Of a DNA stretch of 23,077 nucleotides, positions 1 through 22,737 are shown piece after piece; the first letter of the stretch is position 1; each line of letters starts with the position of its first letter. The DNA is taken from NCBI GenBank assembly GCA_002224055.1, contig AZLU01000384.1, forward strand, positions 1 to 23,077, in the 5' to 3' direction. The position numbers and the translations under genes are program-made. The notes under the pieces are model-generated. The model was not told the origin of the DNA. It saw only the letters and a program-made list of their open reading frames with translations, and searched no databases. Source of the stretch: Pezizomycotina sp. ARF18 (Eukaryota; Ascomycota).

Positions 1-1218
1 AATCGTTGTGAAGGACCTGAAGGTTCGTGCTTTTGGAGAATACGGCGGAACGCCTGTTGCCAAACGTACAAAACGGTGTAAGAGGAGGTTAGAGGTCTGT
101 GATATAGCCACTGATAGGCTTAAACAGAAACGGTCCACAAACGCTCCAAGGTGCGAGGTAGCGAAACTAACTTTGATGAGGCTGGTGAAGGCTGTCAGGG
201 TGAAACACCTCAGAGGAAAATGGACCACAACCCATTGATGCGTCCACCTAAGGAATTTGGCCTCAGCATGCGAGGGAGGGAACCTCCCATGAAGGATGGT
301 GAGGTATTCCTGCATGATAGGGGAAATAGGATATCATCAATCTTGTGTAGCGAATATATTACGCACACGCGAAAGCCGCTGCTCTCGAGCGTGGCATTTC
401 TTTCAAACGAGAACATAGATGATCACCACCGCTGAGAGCACCGCACGCGAAGGTGGGTGAGGCGGACTAGCCGGCTCGTGCTGCAGATCTCAGGCGAGTG
501 CTTCGTTGAAGTCTCGATGAACCGCTTTAAATGGGGGCTACGAACCGGGGAAAGGCAAACGACACCCCCAGCCCTGCATGAGTACAACGGTTTTTCCTGA
601 CAGAGGTCCCTCAATCCGGGCCGACGACGGAAAGCCAGCATCCGCGGCGACGCCATACTTGCGTTTTGGGCTGCCTATACGCTAGCCTCAATCCGGTAAG
701 AGAGATGCAGACTGAACGGGGGCTGTGGAATAAGATAATTGTATATATATAGTGGGGAGGATTAATTTAGAAACTCAATTAGGTAAGTGGGGACGAAAAA
801 TAAAGAAATAAAATAAGACTGTATGTCAAATATAAAGATCATATATACTTGAGTAAATGTATATACTTTATACATATAAGAACACACAATATACTAACAT
901 TATATATATTCAAAACCTTGCCATCGAAGTTTGTTGCTATCACTTTCTCTTACCTTATAGCAAGATGTCAATAGTTGGACTGTTATGCTGTCGTCGCCTC
1001 CGCCGCTCAAATCGCGGGAAACAGACTACCACGAAGGCTAAGTACGGTTCTAGAATTCAGGATACCGGCCCCTCATCTGCGCGCGCTTCCCAAACGTGTC
1101 ATCGTTGCTGGCTGAACGGTGTTTCCTGAGCAAGCTGGCTGAGAGGTTGGGGGATATGTTGCGGAAAGAGGGGGTTTCTAGACAGGGGGCGCTGTGTGGG
1201 CAGGGATACGGCTGCTAA
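1..1218 (+). CDS. Probable 3' part of an unrecognised protein-coding gene, frames broken
   Basis: I do not recognise this product. The stretch is clearly richer in G+C than the AT-rich DNA after it and has coding-like open stretches that change frame: about 8-238, 151-435, 478-600 and 600-685. A plausible intron lies at 696-960 (donor GTAAGA, pyrimidine-rich acceptor ending TTATAG), joining in phase 0 so that reading continues as ...YASLNP then QDVNSW.... A last stretch at about 1106-1218 includes SKLAERLGDMLRKEG and ends at TAA 1216-1218, with mostly G or C in third positions. No domain, signal peptide or membrane segment is evident. The frame switches resemble those in the recognisable genes further on, so one gene with sequence errors entering from the left edge is the simplest reading. 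It could instead be two genes, or the 630-1 direction on the other strand could be the coding one. Confidence 0.35.
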
Positions 1219-1556
1219 TTCTCCAGGGGAAAAAAAATAGTTCCCTGCCTTGCCTGCGAATGTGAGTGATTCTACTTATATAAACAAAAAAAATAAAAAG
1301 AAAAGATGCGATGCCCAAGAGTTGGTCAGTTTTTTTATTTTTTTAGCTTGCTTCAAAAAGGTTGCTGCTTATGCATAGGCACGTATGGTGTAATTGTGCG
1401 AGGCGAAGAAGAAAAGATTTTCAAAAAAAAAGAAAAAAGGAAGGAAATTGCTTGCGAAGAAGAAAGAGCAAGGGATCCCCGTCTCGGGTGCTTTTCCCTA
1501 TTATCCGCTGCGCTTTAGAAACTGAGACAATAAAAAAAATTTAAATAATAAATAAA

Positions 1557-1571
1557 GAGAGAGAGAGAGAG
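1557..1571. repeat. (GA)n microsatellite
   Basis: Short uninterrupted GA run in the spacer; no gene context. Confidence 0.8.
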
Positions 1572-2980
1572 GAGGTACTTTAACTTACTTTCCTACGGCC
1601 CGAACCGGAAAATACACTCCCTCATCAATAAAAGGGGGATTATTTATTTTTACACTATAAGCACCCTGGCTACGCTTGAAGCTCCTTATCTTCCTCAGAT
1701 GATGATACCCTGGCTTGATGTACACGTGCTAGCAAATCGTGAGGGCTGGTACCTTTTTCCCCTTTGACCAAGTTCAGGCCCTTTTGGTGTGCTGGCCTCG
1801 AACTTCGAACTGACGTCGGGTTAGCCCGCAAAAAAAGGATAAAAGACAAAAAACACAGGTGAAGATACTTCTTTAGTAGGTAGACAGAGGTATATAAGTA
1901 GGTGAATAAATCTCCGTCTGCTAAATTTTTACTATCTTCTTGCACCTTCTACAAACGTTCAATCAACATCTAGAGTGTTTCCTACTATATGTTGATACGG
2001 GCTATAGGCCTTCCACCATTTCCTTTGGCTTCCACCTTTTATTTGCTTTTTCGAAACCGGTTCTCTAGAACCTTTTACACCTTCTATTCTTGCTAATGCC
2101 ACATCCGTGATTATATAATATATTTTTTTTTCACGATTTTCCCCCATCTCGCGCCTTTCCTTCGTGAGTGGTTTCTTTTTCGGCTCGGATTGCTTGCTTT
2201 TTCCTGGATCGTTCATATTCACCGCTGCTAGACTTGTTATTAGCAATATCCTTTAGAAATTCCTTTCTTGTTTGAAGAAGAAGAAAATAAGACAACCCAA
2301 TTTATTATCTGTATCAATTTGGCCCGTCTGGCGCCATTTTTTTTTTTTCCTGGAGCCTCGGAGGAGTGAAAAGTGCATGAGAAGAGAGAATAAATAAATA
2401 CATAATAAATAAATAACAACCTCAGATTCCGTTATATATACATTATCACGTTCAGAAAGGAGAGGGTTATTGTAGAGTATATATGGAAACTCGGAAAAGA
2501 ACACCACCAATCTGCTGGAGTTAGCATTTTCGTAATAAAAAAAAAAGAAGGAAAAGACGAAAGGAGGCCGCTCTCATATATCGCTCGATATCTAAATAGA
2601 TAAATAAATCAATAAATAAAAATAATCTAAATAAATAAATAATAAACCAATTTATATTTATATATCAGTATTGATTTGAGCGCTTGATTTTATGACCGTA
2701 TTTATTTTATTATTTTATTATTATTTTATTATTATTATTGATTTATTATTATTATTATTTATTCCGTGTTTTGTTCCGAGTATCGTTTCAGCTAGTGATC
2801 CTGAAGTGATTTTTATTTGACCACCCGCTGTATTATACATATAACGCTTCGCTCACTTCCCCTATCTCTAGTTATCATTCTATTATTCCTCCTATATATT
2901 GGAGGATATGAGGATTAATATTTAATTCTTTGCAGTAATTTTTTTCAAGGCATTGATCGTAGTCCCCTTTCCGAATAGGC

Positions 2981-3014
2981 GTGTGTGGTGTGTGTGTGTG
3001 TGTGTGTGTGTGTG
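2981..3014. repeat. (GT)n microsatellite
   Basis: GT dinucleotide run with one GG interruption. The VCVCVC-type peptide obtained by translating it is an artefact of the repeat. Confidence 0.9.
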
Positions 3015-3574
3015 CTCCTCTTTGGAGTCTCTTTTCTATTTATTTATATTTTTGAGAGTATATTTTTTTTTTTAATTTTTATTCCACACACACTCTCTTC
3101 ATTTCTTTTCTTTTTTTTTCTTTTTTTTTTTTCCTTCTTCTCGTTATTTAAATTTTTTTTCTTTTCATTCTTTTATTTATCTACTTCTTGATATTATTTA
3201 TTAGTCCTTATTATTCCTTTGTATACGGTCGTTACTTTATAGATTGCTATCGTTATTATTAACACAAGTCCCTCTCTCTCGTTCTCCTGAGAGAATCTCT
3301 GCACTACTAGCTCATTTGGACTCGCCTGCTTCTTCCGGCACATCGTAGGTGTATCAAGGGAGAGAAAATTATATATTATATATACATATATATATTTATA
3401 TTTATACATTTAAAGGTACACCTCCTTCTCCACATTGGTGATGTTCTGATATTTCTCTTGTATATTTCTTTCTTCCTTCTTTATTTCCATGCTGTTGTTC
3501 TCCCAATCTACCAACTCTCATTACAAGGCGCGAATAGAAGGGCAAAGTCAGAAGCGAGGGGAGCAGGCAGAATG

Positions 3575-3631
3575 GAAACGGACGAGGAAGAGAAGACTTT
3601 GAAGAAACGGACGAGGAAGAGAAGACTTGAA
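3575..3631. repeat. Two-copy tandem repeat of about 29 bp
   Basis: A unit starting GAAACGGACGAGGAAGAGAA is present at 3575-3603 and again at 3604-3631. The copies differ by a single T in the run after GAAGAC (TTT in the first, TT in the second), so they are 29 and 28 bp. The purine-rich unit is in a spacer with no supported gene. Confidence 0.85.
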
Positions 3632-4415
3632 GAAAGGTCAAAGCAAAAGGCAGGAACTTCACACCACTGCAGCAATAACAATAAACAAACTGCGTCAAAT
3701 TATCTGCGTCAGTAAATCATCGGCATCGCGTCGGTATCAGTAGGTTGCAGATGTAACTGGGTTTCTCACCTTACACCTAAATCGCGTTTGGAGGCTGCTT
3801 TGGACGCTTCTAAAAAAAAATCTTCATAAGAAGGGGAAATTTTTTTCCTTAACGCCTTTATTCAAGAAATATCGCAGTAGAGAGGGAGTGATAACACCAT
3901 CGTGAAAAAAAGAAGAGAGAAAAGAGAAGAAAAAAATAATCGTTAATGACTATACTTCCGAAGTGAAAAGAAAAGAGCACTGATATAGAGCAATATAAAA
4001 AAGTTTTACCCACTGGAGCTGCCGAAAGAGTTGGCAAAACCCTGAACTAACGAGATTTTCCTTCGTCATTCCAGATAAATCTACCCACACCAAACAAAAA
4101 AAAAAAACAGCCACGAACGTCCCCGCCAGTAATAATATTAAGCCAGACCTCACCAACCGCAGACAGTTCCATCTTTTTCCTTCTTTCTTTCTTTTTTTTT
4201 TTCCCCCTTGCTTCGGTACTCGATATTTCAACTACAGGTAGTTTACCGTCCCTTTTCCATGAAGAGAAAAAAAAATTGAGAAAGAGGAGAGAGGAGAGGG
4301 AGAGCATGTCGCTTTCGAAAAAAAGAAAAAAAAAAATTTTTTTAACTATTTTTTTTATTTGACGTTTTAAAATACCTCTGTGATTTCTCCAAGGTTTAAA
4401 GGTCATACAAGTTAC

Positions 4416-6459
4416 ATGCCCATTCTAATGAACCGACCACAACACCAACCGTATCCCCCGGTGTATCATACACCTCAGTCGAATTCGCCGGCATCTGTCG
4501 CGTCGCCAACGGCTACTGATCACCGGTCGGTATATTCAACTCAACAGTTACCCCAGCAGATATATGGCTACCCGCAATCGTACCCTCTCCCCCACACCGC
4601 AGGGCGCAGTATCAACCCCACCCTCAACCATATGACCACCCAACCGCTGCTCATGTCGCAATCGGGCCCAAACGCAACGCACGCCAACATGGCTCCCATG
4701 CCCTCTCCTCCACAAAGCTTCTCAAACCCTCTAGGCCGATCCAGTCACTCGGTCGCTTCCCCGAACACCAATACCGGCCTCGTCCTCAACGCGGCTGCGG
4801 CAATAATGGTTGCATCACGGCCAAGGTTCGCTATCAGGTTCTTCGGTAAACCCTAGCGCCGCCCCGGGCCCGATTCCCGCTACGATCCTCTGGTCGTTCG
4901 TCAGGATAACAACGCGTGCAATGGATAGCGTTCGAATACTCTCGAGACCGGGTGAAGATGGAGTATACCTTACGATGCCGACTGAATCCGTAAACGTGGA
5001 TGCTCTGCCTCAGGATTTTAAGACTGAAAACTGTGTCTATCCCCGAGCGTGTTGTAGCAAGGACCAATATCGGGGTAACCGGCTGGTTTACGAAACGGAA
5101 TGCAACACCGTCGGGTGGGCCCTGGCTGAGTTAAATCCTGCTTGCGAGGGAAGAGGGTCTCATCCAGAGGGCAGTTGACAGCTGGAGAAATTCTAATCAA
5201 GACCCAAGGCTCCGCAGCCGTAGGGTCCGAAGGATGGCAAAATTAAACAACAGGAAGGCCGTTCACGCTAACCAGGTAAACACGATGAAATTCGAACTCC
5301 CCGGTGCACTCTGTCGGCCTGAGTATGAAACCTGCGGCTAGCATGATGCACACTCAACAGGCGCCTTCGCTGCATCACCACCACACCATCATCATAACCT
5401 CACACCCGGGGGATGCTGGGCATGAGGATGATATGGGAGCGATGCTTCAACACACCATGCTCATCAGTCGCCTTTCGTAATGCTGCGGGCATCGTGGGGT
5501 AAACAAGCCACCGCACCTTGCGGCGGCGCAAACGGCGGTGCGAGTCATCATCAGGATCTCAAATGTCCCAACGGGCGTACCGGATGATTTTTCCGGGAAT
5601 CATCACCATCAACCATCACCACAGCGCGCCACCGACCGGTGCCGACGGAAGGCCGCGGAATGTCTACCAGCCTTACCCGGCATCGTACCCGGCCGAGCCA
5701 GGTTCTAGCGCTTCGATCCCACCCTCCATGCATGATGCTTTGGACGGTAACCTTGCGGGCCCGGCGGCGGTTCGGTGGTCCAACCAGCACTGCAGTCGCG
5801 ACGATCCCACAAGCTGCTATGAATACCCCGGCAACTTCGAACATAGCACTCTTCGGCGATATCCCAGAGCACAAAAGGAGAAAGTTTATCCTAGTGGACG
5901 ATCCACACCGAGGAGCGCGCGTTCGTGTCCGAGTGATGCTAGATCAGGTTGAGATGGACGAATTCCCGATCTTACAGGAAATCCAACAGCGTCTATCCCA
6001 GGAGCTACTACGCCAGGCAAATGCAAAGCCCTCCACCATCATCTGCAACGGTTGTACAGAGCACGATACAGATTCCGCTGATGGATGGCAGCAGTTTGGA
6101 CGTGTCTACCCCATTGCCTTCCAAGAGCAAGAAAGAGAAGGAGATTGCTCTAAACGATCTGGGTATCGAATGAGCTGGAGTCAGAGTAGGGTTTGCCGGC
6201 AGAACGATGTTTCTCCAGAGAGCCTGTAAGTAGTACATTCCCCTAATACCGTGTTATTCCCTATATCCTCTTCCTTGTTTCTTTTGTTGTAGAGTCCTTT
6301 TATTGCCCGAATATTTGCTACATCCGATGCAGTAGACGCGTATAGGAACAAGATGCGGAGCAGCATGATGGCTGCTGGACAGGATGTTACGTCTATTGCG
6401 CCGCACCTGAAACCCGAGTCGGTAAAAGGAAATGGCTGGAGCGAAACCGGCCGTTCTAA
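4416..6459 (+). CDS. medA: MedA/medusa-like developmental regulator (DUF8032-type), frames interrupted
   Basis: Likely nuclear regulator of the fungal MedA (Acr1/Ren1) family, known for control of conidiophore or spore development. The N-terminus is Pro/Gln/Ser-rich (MNRPQHQPYPPVYHTPQSNS), with ATG 4416 as first choice and ATG 4428 as alternative. The strongly conserved region lies at about 4905-5275: FEYSRDRVKMEY and RCD (in shifted frames), then ALPQDFKTENCVYPRACC, DQYRGNRLVYETECNTVGWA, RGLIQRAVDSWRNSN and DPRLRSRRVRRMAK. A His-rich stretch is at about 5365-5400. A second conserved part at about 5850-6225 carries IPEHKRRKFILVDD, RVRVRVMLDQVEMDE, YRKSNSVYPRSYY and LNDLGYRMSWSQSRV. One intron, 6226-6332 (GTAAGT...GCAG), joins the final exon (ALDAYRNKMRSSMMAAGQDV ... 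RVGKRKWLERNRPF, stop TAA 6457-6459). Exons total about 1,937 bp, near 645 codons, close to the size I recall for Aspergillus MedA. Several single-base frame breaks occur. The family is clear; the medA symbol is from memory. Confidence 0.75.
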
Positions 6460-6981
6460 AACTTCCGGCTTGCGTAAAGTTCGAACGCTTACAAGTTAAC
6501 CATCGCCCGAAAAATATAAAAACACTCTTCTCACCAGTTCTCTCTCTCTCTTTTTTTTTTTTTTCAAGGAAAAAAAAAAGTAAATCCAGATCCGATTTAC
6601 TAGGTTTCCCTTGGACTAGTTCCCTGCCTTACGACTTATTCTCCTTGGTAAAAATACTAGGACTCGCTTCTCTTTTTCCTCTTCTTTTCCTACTCTTATA
6701 TCACTTTCTCACATAGCCCTTTTGTTTTCTTTTTTTTCGCCTTAGAGGCCCTGTTCTCATTGCCCTTTCATAGTTGCATATTCCTGCAATATATATATAT
6801 CTTCTCAGATTCATCCATTGTTGCATGCCCTCTCCCTTTTTTTTTCCAAGTTCCGGCAAATACTTAGCCAAATACTTCGTTGCTACACAAAAGTGTGAAG
6901 TAGCGAAGGCATATGCATTGCAAAGAATAACAACGTCGAAGAAATATTTAAAGGTTCAAGAGAGAAATCGAAATAAAAGTG

Positions 6982-7009
6982 TTTTTTTTTTTTTTTTTTT
7001 TTTTTTTTT
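6982..7009. repeat. T28 homopolymer
   Basis: Uninterrupted run of 28 T. Confidence 0.9.
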
Positions 7010-7456
7010 CTTCCTATCTTACCCAAAGGGCAATAAGAGCATTAATCGAAATTTATATTAGACAAGCATAAGTACAGGAAATTATCTCTTTACGAATATT
7101 TCCCCCTTCTTCTCACTTTTCTTTTCTTCCTTTTTTTTGTATTCTCAAAAAACATCAATGAACTTATTAAGAGGCGGAGTGTTTATTATTTTAGTCTTGC
7201 TCTTCCGGCCAGAGCCTCACTTCTGGGCCCGTGCCGGTACTCCTGGATGGCACTTCATTTCCTCTCCCCTTCTTCGCTTCGTTGTCCGTATCTGGATATA
7301 TATGTTTCCCTTCCTTCCTTCTCCTTCTTCTGTTTAGTTTTCCTGTATCACATTCAGTCTATGTACTGTACTAGCATACTGTTTAACGTTTGCACCGATG
7401 CTGAGCTTTTATACTGGTGGCATCCGACGAACTTGCGAGCATCATTCTTACAATTC

Positions 7457-7478
7457 TTTTTTTTTTTTTTTTTTTTTT
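7457..7478. repeat. T22 homopolymer
   Basis: Uninterrupted run of 22 T. Confidence 0.9.
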
Positions 7479-7930
7479 GCAATGTTTTTGTTACGTTACC
7501 GCAACTGAAAGTAAGTCATCTGTCTTTTTATTTCTTCCTTTTCCCTTCTTTTTCTCTCAACTTTGGTACTTATGCTATGGTGTTATTGTTATATTTCACG
7601 TAAATTTTTTCTTCTCTTCTTTTCTGTGTTATATATATTGACGCATGTATCATGACAAAAAATGGCACTTCTTCTTCTCCCTTTCTCAGGAGGCTACACC
7701 TCTTCTCGATTGCCGTCCTTTCATGGTCGTTGATTTCCACTGCATGACCACACAATTCCATCGCTTCATGGTTTAGCCTCGTTCCCAACATTATTTCTCT
7801 CTTGATTGAGGGTTACTTGGTTAGAGCAATTTGTTCTTGCTAATAAATTTTCTCTCTCATTTGTCTTTAATCCAATATATTTTTGTTCACGCAGATTATA
7901 ATAAAGTTTGTGGATCAGGAGAGAGATTTG

Positions 7931-7972
<42 letters not shown>
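7931..7972. repeat. T27-A15 junction tract
   Basis: Twenty-seven T are followed directly by fifteen A, making a perfect inverted repeat of 15 bp per arm with no loop. It could form a cruciform or strongly exclude nucleosomes. An assembly join between opposite-strand homopolymers is the other possibility. Confidence 0.85.
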
Positions 7973-7974
<2 letters not shown>

Positions 7975-8443
7975 TAAAAAAAAACTGCGAAGGAAATAGT
8001 TAGGTATTATTCTTTGTGTGCTTCTGAAGATATGTGCATATATACTCGAAGTGTATACAAATAGGTCTGGTACTGATATTACTGAAGCCGTTGAAATTAT
8101 TTGTTATATAGTAGTATGTACGTAAAAAAGTAATATAGAGACGTCTACACTGACCAGCGGGCAGAACAACTTGCATTTAGGGTAAGTATATACCAATATA
8201 CTTAAGTAAGTAATAAACAAAGGCCACTGTCAGATTCTATCGTTTCTTTAAACACCAGGTCCTACTTACTTTGAGGTATAAGTTGATGCAACGTCTTTGG
8301 GAGGAGGTGTATAAAGGGTTAGTTATAGAAGAATAAATAATATAATGCTTGGCTTTGACGATGTTGGATCAGCCTACGTGAAGGACATTTCTGCTGGAAG
8401 ATTGAAGCATCTTCTACATTCCTTTATACGCAAATTGTATCAT

Positions 8444-8463
8444 TATATATATATATATATATA
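8444..8463. repeat. (TA)n microsatellite
   Basis: TA dinucleotide run of about 20 bp in the spacer. Confidence 0.85.
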
Positions 8464-8606
8464 ATGGAGGTCGCATTCTCAGAGTGAAGTAGTCTCGCGC
8501 AGACTCTCCCGGAGAAAACCTTTGTAGGGGGAACCAAGAGCAAATCAGGTTACATAATATATAAACACAAAAAAAAAGTTCGTGCTTCCATTAAATACTA
8601 TTACAC

Positions 8607-8608
<2 letters not shown>

Positions 8609-8644
<36 letters not shown>
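8609..8644. repeat. T36 homopolymer
   Basis: Longest homopolymer in the window, 36 T; its true length is unlikely to be reliable. Confidence 0.9.
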
Positions 8645-8648
<4 letters not shown>

Positions 8649-9183
8649 AGAAAAATAGATAGATAGATACTGAAGGCGGTATGAGGATAATACTCGTGCT
8701 TGGTTATCTATTGCTGATAAGAAGACAGGTGCTGTTTGAGGGGATACACAATACTTGAAGTAAACATAGCCTATTGAATGCAGCCAACTTGTCTGTCGCC
8801 TCTCTTCCATACAAAGTATGAACTTTTTTAGTATCTACTTATTAGTAATATATAATATATGCGTGTTAACTAATGCTGACTGACGAGGACTGGCGGCTCT
8901 CCGAAGAGAAGTGGCAGCCCTTTCTCCCACTTCGCCTTCCCAAGGCCATATAAATTACCCGAGAATCTTTAAAAGTTCAGTGGTAGGGTTAAAATTTATT
9001 TATTTATTTATTTGTGTTGAATGTAGTATACTAGCTGCAGGTTGTAGCTGAAGAAAAAGGGACAATAGAGAGGGTTTTAGCTAAGAAGAGGACTGAAAGT
9101 GATTATACCCCTCCACATAAGTAAGGCAGTAGGTAGTATCATAATCAAAAGGATATTCGAATCCTTTTTCTCTATATTTTTCT

Positions 9184-9184
9184 T

Positions 9185-9219
<35 letters not shown>

Positions 9220-9220
9220 T
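9184..9220. repeat. (TTTA)n tetranucleotide repeat
   Basis: About nine TTTA units. A shorter tract of the same unit lies at about 8995-9014. The YLFIYLFI-type peptide from this region is an artefact of the repeat. Confidence 0.9.
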
Positions 9221-9295
9221 ATTTGTAATGACCGTTTCAATAGTGTCTTTTATTCGGTTCCGTACGACGACTTCCGGTCCTGCCCAATAGCACTC

Positions 9296-9317
9296 ATATA
9301 TATATATATATATATAT
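9296..9317. repeat. (AT)n microsatellite
   Basis: Uninterrupted AT run of 22 bp. Confidence 0.9.
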
Positions 9318-9855
9318 TTTGGCTTTGAAATTTGGACATCTAAATAATCGATAATCAATAATCAATAATCAACAACAATAATAATAATAATCAATATTTG
9401 ATTACGGTTTATTTTCTTTATCCTCCTTCATTCTCTCACTTTCTTTCTTTTTTTCATAATCGTATTCTTTCACTTTGATGAAGTTTTGAAAAGCCCTAAA
9501 ACCTTGGGAGATCTACTTGAGTGTTATCATTACTTGGTAGTCTTAACTCCCGTAGAGATCCTAAGCATTTTTCTCATCTGCAACGACAAATCGTAATATC
9601 AAGCAGTTCTCTTTCAAAATTCCCTTACTGCTATTTATCGAGAGAGCTATATAGTTGATATAATTTTACTAACAGCGTCAAAAGACCTTGTTACAAAACT
9701 CAAATACAAAGAAATTATTCTCATTATAAGTATTTTTTCGCCGGTATTAAAAGGTATCTGCGATACAAAGTAACCTTTCTTCGGTTTTGATATCGAAGAT
9801 GGGAGGACAGAAGCTGAGCAAAAAAAATACATAAAAAAAATAAATAAAAATAACT

Positions 9856-9893
9856 CCCCCCCCCCCCAAAAAAAAAAAAAAAAAAAAAAAAAA
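9856..9893. repeat. C12-A26 homopolymer pair
   Basis: Twelve C followed directly by twenty-six A. The base change between two long homopolymers is unusual and is prone to mis-sequencing. Confidence 0.9.
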
Positions 9894-10341
9894 CATAAAG
9901 GAGGAGAATCGTCCGAGTTATTATCTTTCACCTAATCTACATACATTTATATACTATATATATGTAAAGGTTTCAAGCAAAGGCGCGGATAGTAAAGCAA
10001 GTGAAGCGGTCACATATACACGGAAAGAGAAGGATAGACGCAAGAAAAAGCTGGTACGGGTGGAGATCTGAAGAATATATATCGACAAGAAAGAAAATAT
10101 ATAAAGAGAGAGAGCAAAGAGGGGTAATCTTAAAGGAAAAAAAGAGAAAAAAAAAGCTAATGACAACCCGCTTCCTATTTTTACCTTCTTTCTCCTGCTC
10201 GCGACATATATATTGCATAGAAGATCAATCTCGTCTTCCTTCCGTTCTTCCCCCACCCCCCTCTCTTATAAATCAAGCAGAGGAGAAGAAAAATAAGCAA
10301 AGAGCCTGTCGGTGTAGCCTGCAGGATTAACTGTAGTTAGC

Positions 10342-13300
10342 ATGGACCGCCAACACCAATATTCAGATCAGAACTCGCAGTATTACCCGCAGTATCAACC
10401 ACACGAACGTCGAGGGACACACAGAAAATTCAGAGTCATCCGGCATGGAGCGGCGTTATCAGAGATCTCGGACCCCTAGCTTTGACAGTGGTGACGACAC
10501 GACCTACTTCGACCGGTTTTAAAGCCCAGAGCAAACCGGGATGAGCTTTTCTACGACCCCGGCTTCTACAATGCGAGGCCGGGCCATCCGGAGGGAGTCG
10601 GCGCAAGACCTCCCCAGGATGCCCCTCAGCCTCCTTATCAGGCTTCATACCAGCACCAGCATCAGCACCAGCAGCACCAGTACCAGCAACACCAGCCGCA
10701 GCAATTCCAACAGCCGCAGCAAGTCGTTTTCCCAGCCTGCGCAACCATTGCCACCACAACCCAGCTCCCGCCTCCCCCGCCTCTGCCGTCGTATCAGAAC
10801 CAAAGCCCTCCCCCACCTCTAGGTGGTGCGGTACACCTCCTCGCCAGGCCCACAGCTTCGGATGCCCTTGCCACCGCTGAGCGTTCCTTGAGCCTAAGCA
10901 CTTACCTCCAGCACTCGGCGGTTGCACGCACAATGTCGATTATGACGAATTTGCCGCCCAGTTCGCCCTGGTGGGTACGGCGGGTTTAGTTCGTATATAC
11001 CACAGTCCCCTATTGGTAATTATCCGCAGCATTCTGTCGCATACGGATCACGCCGTACGGGGACCCATGTCAGCAAATTGGCCCAGCGCGAACATTCCTC
11101 AGGCAGTTTCGCAGCCCGCACCTTAATCCAGCGGCATATTCATCTCATCACCTCGCCGCCTCCGCCGAAACGCCCGACGGCCGCAAAGCGGCGCTATGCA
11201 GTACCAAAGTGCCGCCAGCCTAATAATCCTCTCCCACCACCTCCTCCCCTCCCCTCATCAGCAACACCCCAGACTCTAGCTTATAGCACTGAGGCAACAG
11301 GTGAACAGACCGCATTTTAATGTCGGCAACCTCAACCCCCGGTAACACTTCGCCACCAGCACAGCACATAGCGACGTTTCAGCAAGCCGCAGCAGGGTTA
11401 TTTCCAACACCAATCGTCTCCGCCAGCTGGAAGTTATGGAACACAGTCTTTGCGTTTCCGGCGCCACCCCACCGCCCCAGCAGCAGCAGCAGACTTTTCC
11501 GAGCATTTCCACGGTTCAACGCCAGCAGTCCCTTTCTCGTCCACACGATGGCCGTGCCGCTACTGGCGGCCCACAACACCAATACTATTCCAAATTATAA
11601 TCATCCTGGAACTGGCGCGACCGATAACACATCTGTTCCACTCGGTACGCCAGATGACACGACTGGACTTAGCGGTACTTATAGCGTTGCAAACGTAAAC
11701 TCCGCTCACTCAGCGGTGGGACTTCAGCGGACGACGAGCACTGTGTACTCTCAGAGTAGCGATAGCGTAACAAGTGCTGCGGATCCAATCAATCCACTTC
11801 CCACTCCACCGGTGCCACCCGGGCAACCACCTCAGACCACTCCCGATGCAGGGCTTCGTATCGACAAAATAGACCATATTCAATCTCGCAACAAGCCGAC
11901 TTACGGAGCGTCTCGCCGCAACATCGCGGGCTATATTATGCTCAGAATGAAACCTATGATAGGTTAGCCGACGCTACGTCGAACCGATCCGGGGACGGCC
12001 AGCAGAATGGTCTTTACGCACAGAATAATAGAGATTCAGCCAGATGCATTGCGCCAACCACAGCGACGAAACGAAAACCCCTGAGGACAGGACTGTAGGC
12101 TCCATCTCGCAAATAGGTTAGAATACTACTAAAATCGATACATTGATTAAATATTCCTCAAACCCTAAACCCCTCCCCCCTCTTTCTTCCCAATTGTTAC
12201 CCCCATTTTTACCCCATTTTCATCTCACTACTACTCTTTATGCACTATTAAATGATCCGTCTTCTTCCTCCCTTTCTTCTTATGCCCCCCCCCCCCCCTT
12301 TCTTTCTTTCTTTTTATCTTTTCCTTCTAATGTAATCATATAAATCTATCTGCTGACAAGATCAAAAACAGGTAATTCAACCGTCTCGCGCAATTCTAAT
12401 GGGAATTCTGCATATCATATGGGTCAACCTGGCAATAGCAGTGACGAAGCGGCTGCTGCTTGGGAAGCCATGCGCGCGGAAGAATTACGGGAGTTACGCA
12501 TTAGTGAGGAGAATGAGAAGCGCCACAAAAAGAGCACACCGGAGAATGATGGAGACGCCCTCGGCGATAGCATACTGCTATTTTATGGATGTAACTTCAT
12601 ATTCTGGCGGAGCGATGCCATTTTTTTGACGATGGTCACGCTTTACCTACTTTTCAGAAGCAGTCACGACCATAATGCTCCGGTTCTTCCGGGGCACGCC
12701 CTATCGCACGTTACCGTAGGCGGGCTTGAGGTAAATAACAATATAGGACACCCGATCTCGTCTCCAAGATCAGCAGATTCCGAGTCATCCGCCATGGGAA
12801 TGTCGACTATCCGTATCCAGACCCTTACATCGACATTCTCCATCCCTTCCCGGCGTTCGAATCTGCAGCCAGACGGACGCTTCCGGACTGGCGGGCTGCT
12901 AGAACCAGGGAGGAGGAATAGTTTTGTCGAAGGGGACGAATACGAGGGACTCAGCAGTGCCGGCAGAAAGCCTAGCGCTGCAGACGAGATGGATGACGAG
13001 AGTGACGACGATGGTTACGCTCAATTCCTCCCCGACTTGTCGTTCTATCCACCAGAGAGCATCCAGAATTACCATTCAGCTGGTTTGAATTCGCACCCCG
13101 TTGCCTCCAATCCCGCAAGACCAAAGAGCCGCTGGAGATTCTCGAGATCCATCGCAAGGTTTAGCCAGGTTACAGGAACTACCGGCCCGCTGCGGACCGA
13201 CACCAGAGCGTTCCAGACGGCACGTCGACAGCCCAGGCTTATCAACGGCACAGAGGGTCGGCTGCAAGCGAGCCTTAGTCTGAATTCCCACACGAGCTCC

Positions 13301-16300
13301 AGCAGGCTTTTATCTGCCTCGTTCAAAGACAGATGCTTCAGCTCAGTCAAAACCACACGGAGCTCGACCACCTGCCCCAAGACCTGTTAGCGCCCAAGTG
13401 CCGGCCGCGTCACACGGCACTCAAAATTACGAAGATGAAACCCTTGCCCTTGATCTTCCTTCTATACCTCTGAAGAATTCGCGCAAGTTTGATGCCACGA
13501 AGATTCCACCCAGAGAGATCAGGAAAATGCAAACCCTGGCTTTGAGCAAGTATTCACATGGCTAAAGGGTCTGACAGAAGGCGAGGAATTCCTTCGCGAA
13601 AAGAGCATTGTCGAGGCTATTGTGCCCTATTCACTCACATGTGCCCACCATGAATGTGGCTGATGCGGAAACTATAGCAGCCAGGGCCGTGAAACGTTGT
13701 GGGACTCAGAGGCTCTCCCAGGACGAGGAATGGGTGAAGTGGAACCCTAGTGCAGAGGTGTGCGGCGTAATATTCCAAGTATCTGAAGCGGATGTTACGC
13801 CCCACGCCTCCATGCGACAAAGCCTGATGAACCTGAGGTCGCTGGAAGGTGTTACTCGCACCATTGCGCGAGGACGTTAAAAAATATATCTATTGGTGCT
13901 CAGTTCGAGGACGGGAGCGGAAGAAAGAAGACGGGCTACGTTCTGGAAGCTGAAAGCGGAGGATATACCTGCACGAAATCGTTCAGACTGAACAAGAGTT
14001 CCTCGACCATATGAATGTTTTGCGCGGTCTATAAGGAAACGCCCACATGCAAGTCATTAAACCTGCCAAGTTTGAAAACTTTGTTCGAGAGGTATTCGGA
14101 AAGGCCGAAGCGGTCGAGAAGGTTAATGAGCATACCTGCTTCCGGAAACTCCAGTATCGACAGATGGAGCAAGGGCCTTGGGTCGTTGGCTTTAGTGACA
14201 TTTTTAGGGAATGGAATCAGGAAAGCTCGTCCAGCTTACATAGAATACGCCGCAGCTTTCCCAAGGCAGATCTGTACGTTCGACGGAGGAGCCGAACGTA
14301 ACATGCTTTTTCGGCAATTTTTAGAACAGTGTCGTCAAGACCCTCGCGCCAACAGGCTCGACTGCAGCACTTCCTGAAAGCGCCGATCACCAGGCTCCAG
14401 AGGTACGGGCTCCTGCTTTCGACCGTTCTGAAGCATTCGGAAAGGAGGGGATGAGAAACAATCACTTCAAGCTGCCATTGAGGAAATCAAGGCGGTCACC
14501 CTGGAGTGCGATTCTCGTGTCGACGAAATGACAAAGCAGGTCGTTCTTATTGAACTTGCCACGAAACTAAAGATGAGACCTGGTATGGAGTCAACTTACG
14601 GCTCGACGAGAAAGGAAGAGAGGTTATATACCGAGGTGACCTTCAACGTAGTGGGAACAACAAGTTTACATGGCTGGATACGCATGCTATATTGTTCGAC
14701 CACTACCTCGTGCTTGCAAAACGGTCTATCAGAAGGATGCTGGAACAGGCAGCAAGAAAACCAAACATGAGAAATACGATGTCTCACGGATGGTAAGACT
14801 TTAACCAAATGACTTGGCTTTTCTTTATTTCAATAGCTCCGAAACCCCCCTTCTTTTTTTTTTTTTTTTCTCAAAAAATTTGGAATGATGGGATTGCTAA
14901 CAAAGACTTACACGACATGTACACAGCCCATACAATGGATCTCCTAGTATTAGAGAATACTGGGATGAAGCACCAGTTGTAAAAATGCCGTGAAAGGCCT
15001 TGCCTTAGGGACCGCTACATCTAAAGTGCAACCCAGCCCGCTGCTGCAAGTAGAACGGGTCTTTGGCCTCAACAGCAACCCCTGGAAACCTACAGCACAC
15101 CCTTTCATCGGGCTCCACCGCTTCGAATTTGACTATTCCTCCGAAAACAACCAACTCTCAGCCGTTTAGAGAATGCCAATGAAAAAGTAATGTACCCTTT
15201 CCGAATAAAACACTTGGAAAGGGGAGAAAAGGGGAGGAGAATGTCTATACACTCTACGCTCAACAGCGAGCGCAAGAAACGATTGGTGTGCAAAAATAAT
15301 ATTGGCCAAGAAAGGCACGCTGCATCGCTGTTCCGACAAAATGCAGAACCGTTCCGTTTGCGTGTGATGTCCGATGTGTCCTTCGGATTCGACGGAAGTG
15401 ACGTCTTCTGCCGAGCCCGAAGTTGGTAAACGTCCGCGGTACACCGTTGGATAGAGCTATCAAGGAAGTAGAGGGATGTTTCCCGGCCCAAAACCCGCTG
15501 TTGTATGCAAATCGACAGTCAACTGTGCCACCGCCTTTCAAGTTGGGATGGGCTATGGCAAGCAAATGGTTGCGATCGGAACGGATACTGGCGTTTACGT
15601 TTCGGATTATCCAACCCCCGGGGATGGGCCAAGGTAATTTTACTCTATATCATTATCTTTTATTTATCTATCATTACTATTCTTCTTCAAGATTCTTGAA
15701 CAAAAAAGGTTCAAATAAATAAGAGATAGCTAATGAAAGAAAACTTATACTCGTTCAGGCAATCAATATCTCCCGCGTTACTCAGATAGCTGTCTTGGAG
15801 GACTTTAGCCTATTCCTTGTGCTAGCAGACAAATCCCTGATAGCGTATCATTTGGACAGTGTAGTTCCTCCGGCTCAGGGAACGGTCATAAGCGAATCGC
15901 CAAAAGGCCACCCCAAAAGCTCTCCGGCGCCCGGGACGTCGGGTTCTTTGCTACGGGCCGGATGAAGGAAAGAATCCTGGTCTTCTACAAAAAACGAGAG
16001 GGCTCAGTTCCACGTTCAAGGTGCTTGAGCCTGTTTTCCAGAAGGCAACCGAGAAACGGAGTCGTTTTTCAAGGAAAGGCTCGACCGAATTCTTCCGAGA
16101 TTTTGACGACTTTTACATTCCGACGATTGCTTCGGATAAATCTGTTCCATTCTTCCCTTGCAATTCAAACCTCGAAAGGTCTTGTAAACCCCGAAGCACC
16201 AAAGCGTCGTTATATACAATAAATAGGTCACACAGCTAAAGGTTAACACTTATAAAATGTATAGGCTTCGAAGTTATGACTCTGGATAAGAAACAGCCTT

Positions 16301-16815
16301 GGTCTATTCCAGAGCTCAAAGCTCCCCACGTAGTCGCAATAGCCAACCGCGTCAAGGAGCAAAGACCACTTGGCATGTTCAGGCTCTCGGATATCGAATT
16401 CCTTTTATGCTATGAAGGTATAAAATCTCCACCCTCAAGCCGTCGTATTTTAACGGTCTTCGCTGTTTGATTGTACAGAGAGCTGACTCGAAGGAACTTC
16501 AGAATGCGGAGTATTCGTCAACAAGCACGGTGACGTCTCTAGAAGCGTAACCATGGAGTTCGTAGGCAAAGCTAAACCTGTGCACACTATCCGCCGTACG
16601 TTCTGATATTCGACGCCGATTTCGTGGAAATCAGGAATGCGGACAATGGTAGGCTGAGGCAAGTCATCGCTGGCAGAGAAATAAGGTGCTTGGATGACGG
16701 CCAAAGCGGAGGGAGCGCTGGCCATCGTACGATCAAAGTAGGCATGGTCCACCCAGAAACGGATGGCAGGATGGTTGTGGTAGAACTGCTCCTGAACGAG
16801 GGGCAAAGAGATTAA
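10342..16815 (+). CDS. rom2: Rom2-type Rho1 guanine nucleotide exchange factor (DEP-DH-PH-CNH), frames interrupted
   Basis: Activates the Rho1 GTPase at the plasma membrane in the cell-wall integrity pathway. The N-terminus from ATG 10342 (MDRQHQYSDQNSQYYPQYQP) is Gln/His/Pro-rich. Then come acidic DEMDDESDDDGYAQFLPDLS (about 12985-13045) and a DEP-like domain (about 13490-13890: REIRKCKPW, WLKGLTEGEEFLREKSIVEA, MNVADAETIAARAV). The DH (RhoGEF) domain is at about 14000-14540 (KPAKFENFVREVFGKAEAVE, EQGPWVV, FLKAPITRLQRYGLLLS). The PH domain is at about 14560-15180 (YRGDLQRSGNNKFTWLDTHA, LFDHYLVLAK). The C-terminal CNH domain runs from about 15340 to the stop TAA 16813-16815 (YLSI-type core, VLEDFSLFLVLADKSLIAYH, TLDKKQPWSIPELKAPHV, CGVFVNKHGDVSRSVTMEFV, VEIRNADNGRLRQVIAGREI). 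Introns: 12117-12371, 14793-14926, 15634-15758, 16179-16264, 16418-16502. Exons sum to about 5.79 kb, near 1,930 codons, versus roughly 1,200-1,300 aa usual for the family. Many single-base breaks, mostly shortened homopolymers. Confidence 0.92.
10651..10722 (+). repeat. Gln/His codon repeat (CAG/CAC/CAT-rich) in the RhoGEF N-terminus
   Basis: Imperfect CAG-CAC-CAT tract reading as alternating Q and H (YQHQHQHQQHQYQQHQPQQF) in one frame. In another frame it reads as S/T repeats and on the opposite strand as an Ala/Gly-rich frame; these are shadows. Confidence 0.75.
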
Positions 16816-17170
16816 AAGAATACAAGAGCGATCCCTATGAGAATATTGGCTGAATTGTTTTTTTTTCCCGGGGGGATGGAAACATCATATATCACTCTCA
16901 CGTATCTGCTTGAAATCGTCTTTTGGTTCTAGTTAAATATTATTACCATTATGATTGCTGTTATTTCTTTCCGTTTTTGCATACAACGTCATCTTGTGGT
17001 TAGTTACTGGTAGTATGATTATTTGTTTGCATATACGCATCAGCTTTTCGCTTTCGTTTACATTTTACTTCTTACGCTTCTTTCGTCTCTCCATCAAACC
17101 TTCCCTCCTCCTCCTCCTCCTCCTCTTTTCTTCTTCTTCTTTCTCCTCGCTTTTAGCTGGCAGCTATAGC

Positions 17171-17193
17171 TTTTTTTTTTTTTTTTTTTTTTT
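17171..17193. repeat. T23 homopolymer
   Basis: Uninterrupted run of 23 T downstream of rom2. Confidence 0.9.
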
Positions 17194-17736
17194 AGCATCT
17201 TTGTCCGTTTGCTATGCCGGTTTGTTTCCCTTTTTCCACTTCCATTTTCAAGCTTACGCTGTTTTCTTTGTATGTGTAAGTAGTTTTTGCGAGAACAGAC
17301 GTTATCTCAAGTCTTACAAAATATTCTCTGATATACAAATTACAACCATTTATATATGTGGTATGTAAACATGTTAAATATCCAAGGCACATGTGTGTTC
17401 GTTCCATGAATTTACATAGCTACTCGGGCTATTGTATAATAAGACCTCTGACATATATATATATAATGTATATGTATATATTAGTGGCTTTGGAGCAATC
17501 AGAGTCGAAAAATACTTCTTTTCGTGATGATGATAATAAGGATACTTACTAAAGTATATAATTAATTATAAAGTCGTGACTTTTTAGTAGATTGTGTGTG
17601 ACGCTTTCCGGCAGGAGCCCGAAGTGAATGAACCCACCTCAACCAACAACTTATCACTCTTTTTTTTTTTAACCCCGCCTTACTTAGACGTCAGTGATTA
17701 TTATCGTATTCGGAAATATCGGCAGTATCGGGAGAC

Positions 17737-17739
<3 letters not shown>

Positions 17740-17771
<32 letters not shown>
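17740..17771. repeat. (TTA)n trinucleotide repeat
   Basis: About ten TTA/TAT units; the poly-Y peptide it encodes is an artefact. Confidence 0.9.
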
Positions 17772-17773
<2 letters not shown>

Positions 17774-17946
17774 AAGTATTCTAGTATTTATAAAAAGCAG
17801 GCACTTAAAAACTGATACCAAGTTGAACAACTTTCAGTGAAATCCTTATTTATTGCCTTCTTTCCTTCTTATCATCGTATAGAATACTTAACGACTTATT
17901 TGCTGGGACGAGAAGAAAAAGAAAAAGAAAAGCCAGGTTAGGTGAG

Positions 17947-17964
17947 TATATATATATATATATA
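17947..17964. repeat. (TA)n microsatellite
   Basis: TA run of about 18 bp in the sod1 upstream region. Confidence 0.85.
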
Positions 17965-18012
17965 CACATACGATATTTTATTTTAAAATAGAATAACTAC
18001 AACAAATTCCCC

Positions 18013-18046
18013 AAAAAAAAAAAAGAAAAAAAAAAAAAAAAAAAAA
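18013..18046. repeat. A12-G-A21 tract
   Basis: Two A homopolymers split by one G, upstream of sod1. Confidence 0.85.
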
Positions 18047-18150
18047 GAGGAATACATTACTACCACTACTACTCCTTAGTACTTACTCTTCCCAATTCTT
18101 CCCATTCTTCTCAGGTATTTGCTCCCTCGTGAAAAGAAAAAAATAAATAA

Positions 18151-18210
18151 CAATAAATCAATAAATCAATAAATCAATAAATCAATAAATCAATAAATCA
18201 ATAAATCAAT
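18151..18210. repeat. (CAATAAAT)7.5 octamer tandem repeat
   Basis: Seven and a half perfect head-to-tail copies of the octamer CAATAAAT, followed by TAAA and AAT repeats to about 18251. It sits about 170 bp upstream of the sod1 start codon, so it lies in the promoter or leader. Confidence 0.92.
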
Positions 18211-18220
18211 AATCAACGAA

Positions 18221-18251
<31 letters not shown>

Positions 18252-18380
18252 GGTACCAAGTGTATACGTCAATCCTAAGCCGTACTACTTTTATAAGCTG
18301 TTAACCACTATATACCATAGAATCGTCTCGATACAAGCCCTACTCTTGTTTACTCCTCCAGTCTCAAAAGTGAAATAAAA

Positions 18381-19369
18381 ATGGTTAAAGCAGGTGCGCA
18401 GTAGTTTATATAATTCCCTTACCGGGCCCCCTTCCTATTCCTTCACCTTTTCTCTTTTCCATTGCAAAAGCTATGTGCTGATATACTGTCACGGTATCCG
18501 AGGAGCTTTAGTTGCTGTACTCCGTGGCGATTCGAACGTCAAGGGAAAGGTCACTTTCGAACAAGATTCTGAAGATGGCCCTACGAAGATTAGCTGGAAA
18601 ATCACTGCAATGACGCCAATGCGAAGAGGGAATGCATATTCACCAATTTGGTGATAATACTAACGGATGCACTTCCGCTGGAGCTCATTGTGAATAGCGC
18701 CCGCCTTTAGGGGAAAAAAATTTTTTTTTTCAACTAAATCACAAAGAGATATATTTAAATACTTGTGCTAACTACTCCCCAAGTTAACCCTCATAACAAG
18801 GAACACGGTGCTCCGGGAGAAGATGAGCGCCACGTAGGCGACCTTGGAAACGTCGAAACGGATGCCCAAGGTACCGCGGAGGGTAGCATTGAAGACACCT
18901 TTATCAAGTTAATCGGCCCACACAGCATCGTTGGGTAAAAGATCTTGGTCCCATATTTTTTTCACACACGCACGCACATTGATATACTCTCCCTCTCTTC
19001 ATCCCTCCGCCCGTCCCCTTCTTCTAGCGGAACCCTTTAGAAAGAGGGGTAAAGAGGGGCAACATAATGGTACCGTCCTTAATATTGCATTTCTAACGAG
19101 ATATATCATCATGGTGTATTTCAGAGAACTGTCGTGGTACATGCCGGAACCGATGATCTGGGTAAAGGTGGACACCCTGAGTCCAAGAAAACGGAAATGC
19201 CGGTGCCCGCCCCGCTTGTGGTGAGTTAAGATCCATAACTATTCGTGTTTTGTCGAAGAATAGATGTATACACACACAGGCACACACACATATACATATA
19301 CATATATACATATGTTGAAGATTACGCTGACGAATTCTCGCGCTAGGTGTCGTTGGCATCAGCTCTTGA
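18381..19369 (+). CDS. sod1: Cu/Zn superoxide dismutase (EC 1.15.1.1), frame interrupted by single-base losses
   Basis: Cytosolic enzyme converting superoxide to hydrogen peroxide and oxygen. Five exons: 18381-18393, 18512-18689, 18784-18934, 19125-19220 and 19347-19369 (stop TGA), read as [16 protein letters not shown]..., [79 protein letters not shown]. Copper/zinc ligands are all present: the two His of MHIH, His of GAHF, His of KEHGAP, His and Asp of ERHVGD, and His of VVVHAG; so are the disulfide Cys of NGCTSAG and PACG and the active-site Arg of ARPACG. There is no signal peptide, so it is the cytosolic form. Single G bases appear missing at about 18607, 18628-18630, 18933-18935 and 19192-19194. 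Exons sum to 461 bp; adding four gives 465, exactly 154 codons plus stop, the usual family length. First-intron donor GTGCGC and second-intron donor GTGAAT are weak. ATG context AAAATGG is good. Confidence 0.96.
19269..19315. repeat. CA/TA-rich microsatellite in the last sod1 intron
   Basis: Mixed CA and TA(CATA) dinucleotide stretch inside intron 19221-19346, which ends with acceptor CGCTAG. Confidence 0.75.
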
Positions 19370-19486
19370 ATTCAGAGCAGCTACAAGCAGAGCCGGGCCG
19401 TTCCCGATTGGCCGGTGCTCGAGGTACATCGGTGCCTCTTCGTTCGAAATCATCTTTTGGTGTGATAAAAAGGGTTTAAACTTCTA

Positions 19487-19501
19487 ACGTCTTGAAGACG
19501 T
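19487..19501. repeat. Short inverted repeat ACGTCTT-G-AAGACGT
   Basis: Seven-base arms around one G, about 120 bp after the sod1 stop. The single-base centre makes an RNA hairpin of the full arms unlikely; it may be incidental. Confidence 0.5.
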
Positions 19502-19547
19502 AGAACGTTATGTTTCAATGCGTCATAGAAGACATCTTAAATATGGA

Positions 19548-19553
19548 AATAAA
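19548..19553 (+). promoter_or_regulatory. Candidate polyadenylation signal AATAAA for sod1
   Basis: Exact AATAAA 179 bp after the sod1 stop codon, at a usual distance for a fungal 3' UTR. Fungal signals are loose, so this is suggestive only. Confidence 0.45.
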
Positions 19554-19948
19554 AGCAAATTGAACAGATAAAAAGTCCGATGTACTCTGCAACCAAAAGA
19601 AAGAAAGAAAAAACTGCCAAGCGCTATAACCATAGCACCAAGCCAGGGAAAACATGACATCACTATAGCGAAGGTACAGAGATTAAGCTACAAGAATTAT
19701 GACTACAAATATCCCACATTCGGTAAAACATGTTCAATGCGAGAATGAGAGAACAAAATAGCGTTTAAAAAATGACTGTTAGAGAGGAAGAGAAACAACT
19801 CGAGCATAGAAGAGGTAAACAGGCTAAACAAGCACTTGTGAAAAGATCATCCAATGTCTATCCAATAGTATTCATGCCAGAATATTTCCGCAAACTAAAA
19901 AGGAAGAAGACAAAGAAAGAAAAGAAAAAGAAAATGAACCGGTTCAAG

Positions 19949-22737
19949 TCACGGCATTGTTGGGGTTATAACTAGGGACATTGTCAGCCACTCCCATTCT
20001 TGGGAGCTGGTTGCGTTAGGAGCCCGTTGTGAGGCTGAGGTAAGACCGGGGGCTTGTTGACTTAGTGATGATGTCCGCTGCGTACGTCCGTCAGGATTGT
20101 GTTTAGAGCGACGCCCCTTAGATGAATCTTCGTCTTGAACATCCAATACACTATATCTGCATTTCGCCGTTGTCGCTTCGAAAACGTGTTGCCCCTCAAA
20201 GTCCCATCTGAACTTTGCGATAAACCTGTTTCCTTTGAAATCGCTGGTGCTTTGATTCGCGCCTCAATACCGCCGGGAATAAAGTTGGCCCCGGAGCCAC
20301 TACCATTGGGACCAGCAGATACAGCGAAGCTAGATGCCGCGACTGGATCGACTTCCAACATGGAAGAATCTTGATGCTTAAAGGATGCGGTAGGGGTACC
20401 AGAAACTGGATAGAATTCTTTCGTCCGCCTTTTCTTGGACGTGCTATCGTCGGTATGGAGTTTCCCCGCCTCGATTGCGCTTCTTGATGATATCCGTTTT
20501 CAGGGAAAGGGCCTGACAACACCGTGAAGCTTCAGAAACAAACCACAGGCATTACAAAGCGGCTGACCTTCAGGGTTACGACGCCACAGAGGGGTAGTCT
20601 GGGTGAAGCAATTTGTACAGGTAGTAGGGCACCAGAGGGATTATTGGAAAATAATGCTTTGGATGCATCAGGTGACGGGGCCGAGACGGCTCCGTGGAAT
20701 TGAACCCGGACTCGGGTGGTGAGCTCGGGCTGGACTGGACACCAGAGTGGGGTTCCGGATTAATTGTACCACTAGAATTCGTAGGGTTATTGGACTTTGC
20801 GTGCTCATTCCAATGCCATTCGGGGTTAACGGATCGCCACGCACGTTAGCGTCTCTCTGGTTGCTCGGCGTAGCCATATGCGTCAAATGGCTACTAAACA
20901 TGAAATCATCGTGAGATTTTCGAGGCTCCACGTCAGTAGGCTCCAATTGCTCGTCTCTGGCATGGGGAACTTGTTCCTTCCCAGAGACGTTGTGGGCTCT
21001 GCGGACCATGGTCCCACTGGACATCCAGCCATTAGTGAAATTCTCCGTAGCACTGTGTAGGTTGCTGAAAACGTCACCGGATCCTGGTGACGCATCCCTA
21101 GTCCTCATCCCCATCATCGGAATCACCAACGAAATTAAAGATCCTGTCTCCCCTTAACAGCTGCGGTTCCGGAGATTGAAGGACGTGCGAAGGGTTGACG
21201 TGCTGGAAATAGTCGCCGATGAAGGAAAGCTGCTTTGAGGCATCATTGCCGCCTCAAAACCAAAAAGTAGCGGGTCTTGAGCTTGATTGTATAGGAAACG
21301 TTGGGATGACACGTCTTCATCTCCATTGTGGTTCCCCGTGGAAGGAACGTACCCCATAGTATTCTGTCCGCTACCTACGGGAATCGTATCAAAGAATAGC
21401 GAATTACCGTCGTGGCGATTGTGGGGGTAGAAGACGAGGGGAGACGGAAGTGCCAGGGAGTAGAGCCCTGAGGTGGGCCTGATGAACCTAGCGGCGCGCT
21501 CGTGCTGTTATATAACATATTGGACCGGCTGGTACGCATCACGCTCGATCCAAGCTGATGAAAATTAAATCTGGATTGGTAAGGGTCTGCGGAATGAATT
21601 GTAGCTTCAGGCTCTCCTCTCGACGTCATTGAAGAGCTTGAAGACAGTCAGGTAGCTGAAAATTCCGCAAACCAAAAATATTGGTATCTTGGTTGGGATG
21701 ATATAAATAGTAGTCAGGCAAGTCGTGGTCTTGAGGCGTTGAGTCGTTTGATATCATGACACTTGCTACCTGGGGGGAAAAATTTGCTGGTCTCTTCTTC
21801 TCCTTAACCGAAACACCCTCATCAGATATGATCAACAGCACGGGTCTAACAATTTTTAATTGCAAGCCAGAAATGAAAGCTGTGTATTGGTACGCGAAAT
21901 AACGTATCAAATCTATATAGGTATATATGTATATATATATAAAAGGGCTCGTCTGGTGATACGTACCTTTTTGCCAATGTCCATGCTAGTTTTTCGGACA
22001 TGTCGCTGTACGTAGTCGAAATCACTCACGCCGGAACTATTCATTACTGGTTGGCAGAGGTAGCGAGGTGGTGTTCATCGGAAGGTAATTGCCTCGGTGC
22101 AGGCTTTATTGAAATTGCTGTACTCGTAGTGTTGGTGGATGTTTTGACGATCATCATGGCCATCTTCGTGTCGAGGATTCTCAGAGAGAAACACTTCCAG
22201 GAGGGATCGTCGACGGCCATGATATCGTCCGAGTGAGCACACTCCGGTTCTCGTGTAGGTTCATGGCACTGCTCCATCCTATAAATTATTATAGATTATT
22301 GGCATGGGTTCCGCCGTCGCTTATTTGATATATATATATATTTCGGGGGAATGGGGAAAAAAACTTTATTCGTGTTTTTTCTCAGGTTACCTTCGGGATT
22401 TTGTGCTTTGTTCGCGCTTTAGCGCCATAGCCATCATCCTCCAGGTCAGGTTCTCCATACGCTGCTGATTAGGCAAGCTACTTTTTGTCTTGCTGTAGAG
22501 CTTCCATACTTCTGTGGCGAGAGGATCTCGCCTCTGCATGTCCGTCGGGTCATCGAGGGGAGACGCTTCCCTTCCTTCAAGTCCGGAAAGAAGGAATTCC
22601 GAAGAACCTCTGTCCGAGCGGCTTGTTGAACTCGAGATAAATCCAGATTGGGCCCTCGTTACTACAGAAAATGAACGTGAAGGTTTTAAAGGTGTTTGGA
22701 ATTGAAGGTGATCGAATATTCGATGTGCCTTTCTGGG
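19949..22737 (-). CDS. areA: AreA/NIT2 global nitrogen regulator (GATA factor), frames interrupted, 5' end unresolved
   Basis: Nuclear GATA transcription factor that activates nitrogen-catabolic genes when preferred nitrogen is lacking. The first visible exon ends at 22391 and holds the family motif [19 protein letters not shown], then MENLTWRMM (22432-22458). Intron 22279-22390 (GTAACC...TATAG); second exon 22278 to 21967 includes [18 protein letters not shown]; intron 2 starts at 21966 (GTACG), its acceptor lying somewhere near 21800-21830. The last exon holds [25 protein letters not shown], a Ser-rich middle, and one GATA zinc finger at 20545-20619 (C-X2-C-X17-C-X2-C: CTNC...[16 protein letters not shown]) followed by [24 protein letters not shown] and RKNSIQ. 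The C-terminus [11 protein letters not shown] is the conserved AreA end that binds NmrA. Visible exons total about 2.5 kb (near 835 codons; AreA is about 880). No in-frame ATG is found before 22537 (Met of TDMQRRD), though open frame extends to a stop at 22738-22740, so a 5' exon or frameshift is likely. Confidence 0.95.

Follow-up and report, generated by a model that had tools for sequence, protein, structure and literature searches.

Scattered single-base losses in a draft assembly probably explain the broken genes of a Pezizomycotina contig

The reading frames of the genes recognised in the window, i.e., the entire 23,077-base contig C384 of a 408-contig assembly that totals 46,361,250 bases (46.36 Mb), are most probably broken only in the record. 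We give a probability of about 0.96 to the reading that these breaks are an artefact of an insufficiently polished draft assembly and that the genes are intact in the organism. The changes are found on many contigs, they affect genes that are not translated, the deletions are in excess within runs of the same letter, and they are private to one copy of a repeated gene. In the proposed mechanism, the consensus would lose one base from short same-letter runs at scattered places and, less often, would gain a base or lose two. Too few or uncorrected single-molecule reads may be the cause.

Four genes can be recognised in the window. The first one (4416..6230, forward strand) is presumably a velvet-family (VosA-like) gene, a name based on velvet motifs; its frame is broken several times, and two pieces of it scanned against Pfam gave no match at E 0.01. 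The second one (10342..16830, forward strand) is a ROM2/RGF-like Rho GEF gene with many overlapping open frames. Its Pfam pieces lie in separate frames and correspond to the RGF3 winged helix (PF23582, E 3.8e-9), the CNH domain (PF00780, E 1.8e-8), and a weak RhoGEF match (PF00621, E 6.1e-4) that falls under its cut-off. The third gene (18381..19369, forward strand) encodes the Cu/Zn superoxide dismutase SOD1, and the fourth one (19975..22737, reverse strand) an AreA-like GATA nitrogen regulator, whose N-terminal AreA domain was identified by Pfam (PF08550, E 1.9e-14) and whose zinc finger was recognised by eye only. This gene content (AreA domain, RGF3 winged helix, CNH, and weak RhoGEF), together with the ITS/5.8S region present in the assembly sequence, fits a filamentous ascomycete. 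When the window was scanned for Rfam families and for tRNA genes, neither gave a match.

To place the breaks in SOD1, yeast SOD1 was aligned to positions 18351-19400 of the window with a purpose-built frameshift-aware aligner. The alignment, which spans 18381-19366, fitted four introns and contained 92 identical residues among 146 matched codons, with no in-frame stop. Three minus-one events were called, at about 18607, 18621, and 19191, each at most 7 bases from a site listed in the preliminary description. At 18933, another of the listed sites, the aligner fitted an intron at the exon end plus one unmatched residue and called no break, a misfit that is consistent with a fourth one. In the control, which used synthetic sequences of about 62% identity with introns switched off, one deletion was called as minus-one in 20 of 20 cases and one insertion as a plain plus-one in 19 of 20 (the remaining one with extra events), with one false pair of calls among 20 intact sequences.

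Broken frames such as these are also a feature of pseudogene decay, and the many breaks in the window could mean that all four are pseudogenes whose working copies lie elsewhere or whose functions are dispensable. However, the search of the assembly revealed no second Sod_Cu locus, since the only two matches at E 0.001 are both in the window SOD1. In addition, all ten positions taken as the ligand, disulphide, and active-site residues of SOD1 are kept. For SOD1, this and the absence of in-frame stops agree with the earlier statement that catalytic residues are intact and that substitution-type stops are not seen.

In rom2, areA, and vosA, open frames overlap and repeatedly pass into one another. 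Six sites of base loss had been proposed in rom2, and three of them were followed. The hand-over between open frames at 14718 corresponds to a minus-one change, as claimed, and 14962 and 14981 jointly produce a net plus-one/minus-two change, the outcome expected of two single losses; the frame list has no entry for the short segment that separates these two sites. In areA, a minus-one frame change occurs just past the zinc finger, near 20506, and the frame is lost directly after the finger. A change at this place had been predicted, but the run named for it (20506-20508) is not unique, since several short runs adjoin there and provide more than one candidate for the lost base. The hand-over that follows, near 20499, belongs to the plus-one/minus-two class. 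As for the letters themselves, nine of the eleven places listed are single-letter as described (18607 being a single base), and for the other two, 13537-13539 and 19192-19194, the coordinates are displaced by one base.

A second copy of the window DNA was sought in the assembly with window positions 1-20000, a range that leaves most of areA outside, and none of the 141 matches listed lies in the gene spans. These matches fall in simple-repeat or low-complexity stretches, and therefore a direct copy comparison of the window genes is impossible. The segment 18131-18251 of the window is a CAATAAAT/AAAT repeat; its relatives are found on many other contigs, most of them with an identity of 75-93%. 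Also in the window, a 28-29 base unit occurs twice in head-to-tail order (3575..3635, no strand); the two copies match at 96% with 3% indels and differ in the length of one short run.

Among the contigs with lengths seen, the numbering follows decreasing size, and C384 is a short one. It might therefore be imagined that this small contig of 23 kb alone is poor, within an otherwise sound assembly, but this reading, to which we give a very slim chance, is already contradicted by the genes found elsewhere. The best actin locus, at C382:14051-15874, agrees with yeast actin at 336 of its 368 matched codons and has four deletion-type breaks (three minus-one, one minus-two), with no plus-one event and no in-frame stop. 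This locus and one on C15 were the two aligned from the 20 actin-family matches on six contigs. The C15 locus, the best-scoring one, at first resembled actin but was assigned to an actin-related protein because its identity amounts to only 141 of 364 matched codons; the events called there (three minus-one and two plus-one) are unreliable at that level and were thus left uncounted.

The chaperonin family is represented by 33 pieces at eight loci. Counting mechanically as a switch any neighbouring pieces in different frames that overlap or lie less than 40 bases apart, we found 13 switches, none of which leaves space for an intron, at seven of the eight loci, on contigs C20, C24, C53, C54, C99, and C139; this count is rough, as the overlap exceeds 70 bases in three of the 13 pairs. 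The eighth locus, with two pieces 924 bases apart, is uninformative. Nine of the switches are minus-one and four belong to the plus-one/minus-two class, a proportion that counts against the simplest form of our explanation: a missing base is the main class of change, as had been proposed, but to say that one base is missing every time would go too far.

Short frames are also seen in the stretches sampled across the assembly. In eight stretches of 4 kb sampled on contigs from 22 kb to 1.12 Mb, the longest stop-to-stop frame in the standard code has 209 aa, and the stretches of C1 (1.12 Mb), C8, and C20 likewise show short frames, against the idea of a fault limited to C384. The H3 gene on C32 is spread over three frames, no near-identical H4 was found among the histone loci fetched, and the tubulin search of the assembly gave four short matches. 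The breaks noted in the window are real in the sequence as given, but the proposal that four genes share a lesion was too narrow, as it extends to actin, chaperonin, and rRNA genes across the assembly. That actin, with no in-frame stop, and seven of the eight chaperonin loci are broken alike, and that untranslated RNA genes carry the same lesion, makes gene decay very improbable and strongly supports the earlier interpretation of the breaks as sequence error.

The genes for untranslated RNAs allow the copies of one gene to be compared within the assembly. The 5S rRNA gene has 15 matches (L012-L026), 11 of which are near-identical and close to one of two forms. These two forms differ at about ten places, and further copies are divergent and pseudogene-like. 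Each of the 11 copies was compared with the nearer form, excluding the last base, and the four divergent copies (L023-L026) were dropped. The comparison yielded 13 deletions, one insertion, and five substitutions, the copies L012, L013, L014, and L016 (4/11) showing no difference, with L012 and L016 being the reference forms. Twelve of the 13 deletions lie in runs of 2-4, although runs of two or more make up only a 0.41 share of the bases in the commoner form (P 1.7e-4 for the deletion excess) and 0.34 in the other one. The deleted letter was G or C in nine of the 13 cases. Three of the dropped copies (L023-L025) contain five deletions and four insertions amid many substitutions, a less lopsided ratio than that of the 11 copies counted.

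A similar picture was obtained with the rDNA on C189, where one unit was set against three others, over 1665, 2430, and 1570 bases, and showed three run-length differences and no substitutions. The differences lie in runs of about 4-9 and are differences in length between units. Thus, both in the 5S genes (11 of the 15 matches) and in the rDNA, indels, chiefly deletions in runs, outnumber substitutions. The C189 units (L089-L092) are nearly identical in their readable parts, the others reading N. The spacing of the first three matches is 10,867 bases or double this value, and that of the last one is 10,861. Regarding tRNAs, 33 of the 54 matches are on contig C50, and the nuclear copies are too few for a comparison.

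These copies also bear on the possibility that the sequence is real and that the breaks are overcome by ribosomal frameshifting on a wide scale or by insertional RNA editing like that of slime-mould mitochondria. Changes spread over many contigs, affecting RNA genes too and consisting mostly of one missing base, could be expected from such a system. Nevertheless, the altered sites vary among otherwise identical 5S copies and rDNA units, and unaltered copies coexist with altered ones, so that there are no fixed editing sites. In addition, frameshifting cannot compensate a change in the 5S and rDNA genes because they are untranslated. Changes private to single copies argue against gene decay, programmed frameshifting, and RNA editing alike, and we regard a frameshifting or editing system as extremely improbable. 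Closest to negligible is the variant in which the genome truly carries private single-base run contractions at such a density and these are tolerated through pervasive transcript slippage or editing.

Contig C50 (231 kb; L054 and those loci of L059-L088 that lie on it) contains nad1, cob, atp6, and intron ORFs of the LAGLIDADG and GIY-YIG families, with a GC content of 0.22-0.29 in the stretches seen, and has the appearance of a mitochondrial genome of very large size or of a concatenate. Since a mitochondrial molecule would receive deeper sequencing, fewer errors are expected in it. One of the eight sampled stretches is on C50 and contains a frame of 308 aa in code 4: this single open frame covers 248 of the 298 nad1 profile positions and then nad1 leaves the frame. 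The cob/LAGLIDADG frame has 383 aa, and atp6 matches in frame only positions 3-128 of 217. The contrast with the other contigs is weak, since these frames were chosen for length.

Concerning the kind of error, the window has nine runs of at least 15 bases, all of A or T, the longest being a T run of 36 (8609..8644, no strand), and the stretches sampled elsewhere contain runs of up to 28. This persistence of A/T runs of 15-36 also speaks against our explanation, since it is unlike platforms that cut long runs. A wholesale shortening of long runs is thus doubtful, and single bases would rather be lost here and there from short ones. For the four window genes, the run-length counts are mostly near the expectation for independence, so that one missing base per few hundred would be invisible from such counts alone. 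The density of events is three or four per about 460 coding bases in SOD1, four per about 1,100 in actin, and 14 per about 1,300 bases in the 5S genes, being far lower in the rDNA.

This pattern resembles that of unpolished long-read assemblies as treated in a paper on the subject (PMC12007338), which cites Watson and Warr and reports an association of deletions with runs of two to eight bases, as well as frameshifts and false pseudogenes in many genes, with insertions being less tied to runs. The resemblance includes run-linked deletions, frameshifts, and false pseudogenes. The pattern differs from the nanopore assembly described in the same paper, where most deletions followed runs of four to five, in that the 5S deletions lie here in runs of 2-4, the rDNA differences in runs of about 4-9, and the long A/T runs persist.

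The artefact is therefore of an ordinary and well-described kind, it is spread over the assembly, and it provides no support for a biological frameshift system. The comparison of 5S and rDNA copies inside one assembly separates consensus error from biology, without the need of reads or of a related genome. The broken frames matter solely as a warning: if this assembly were annotated automatically or analysed for gene content, essential genes would be reported as missing or as pseudogenes.
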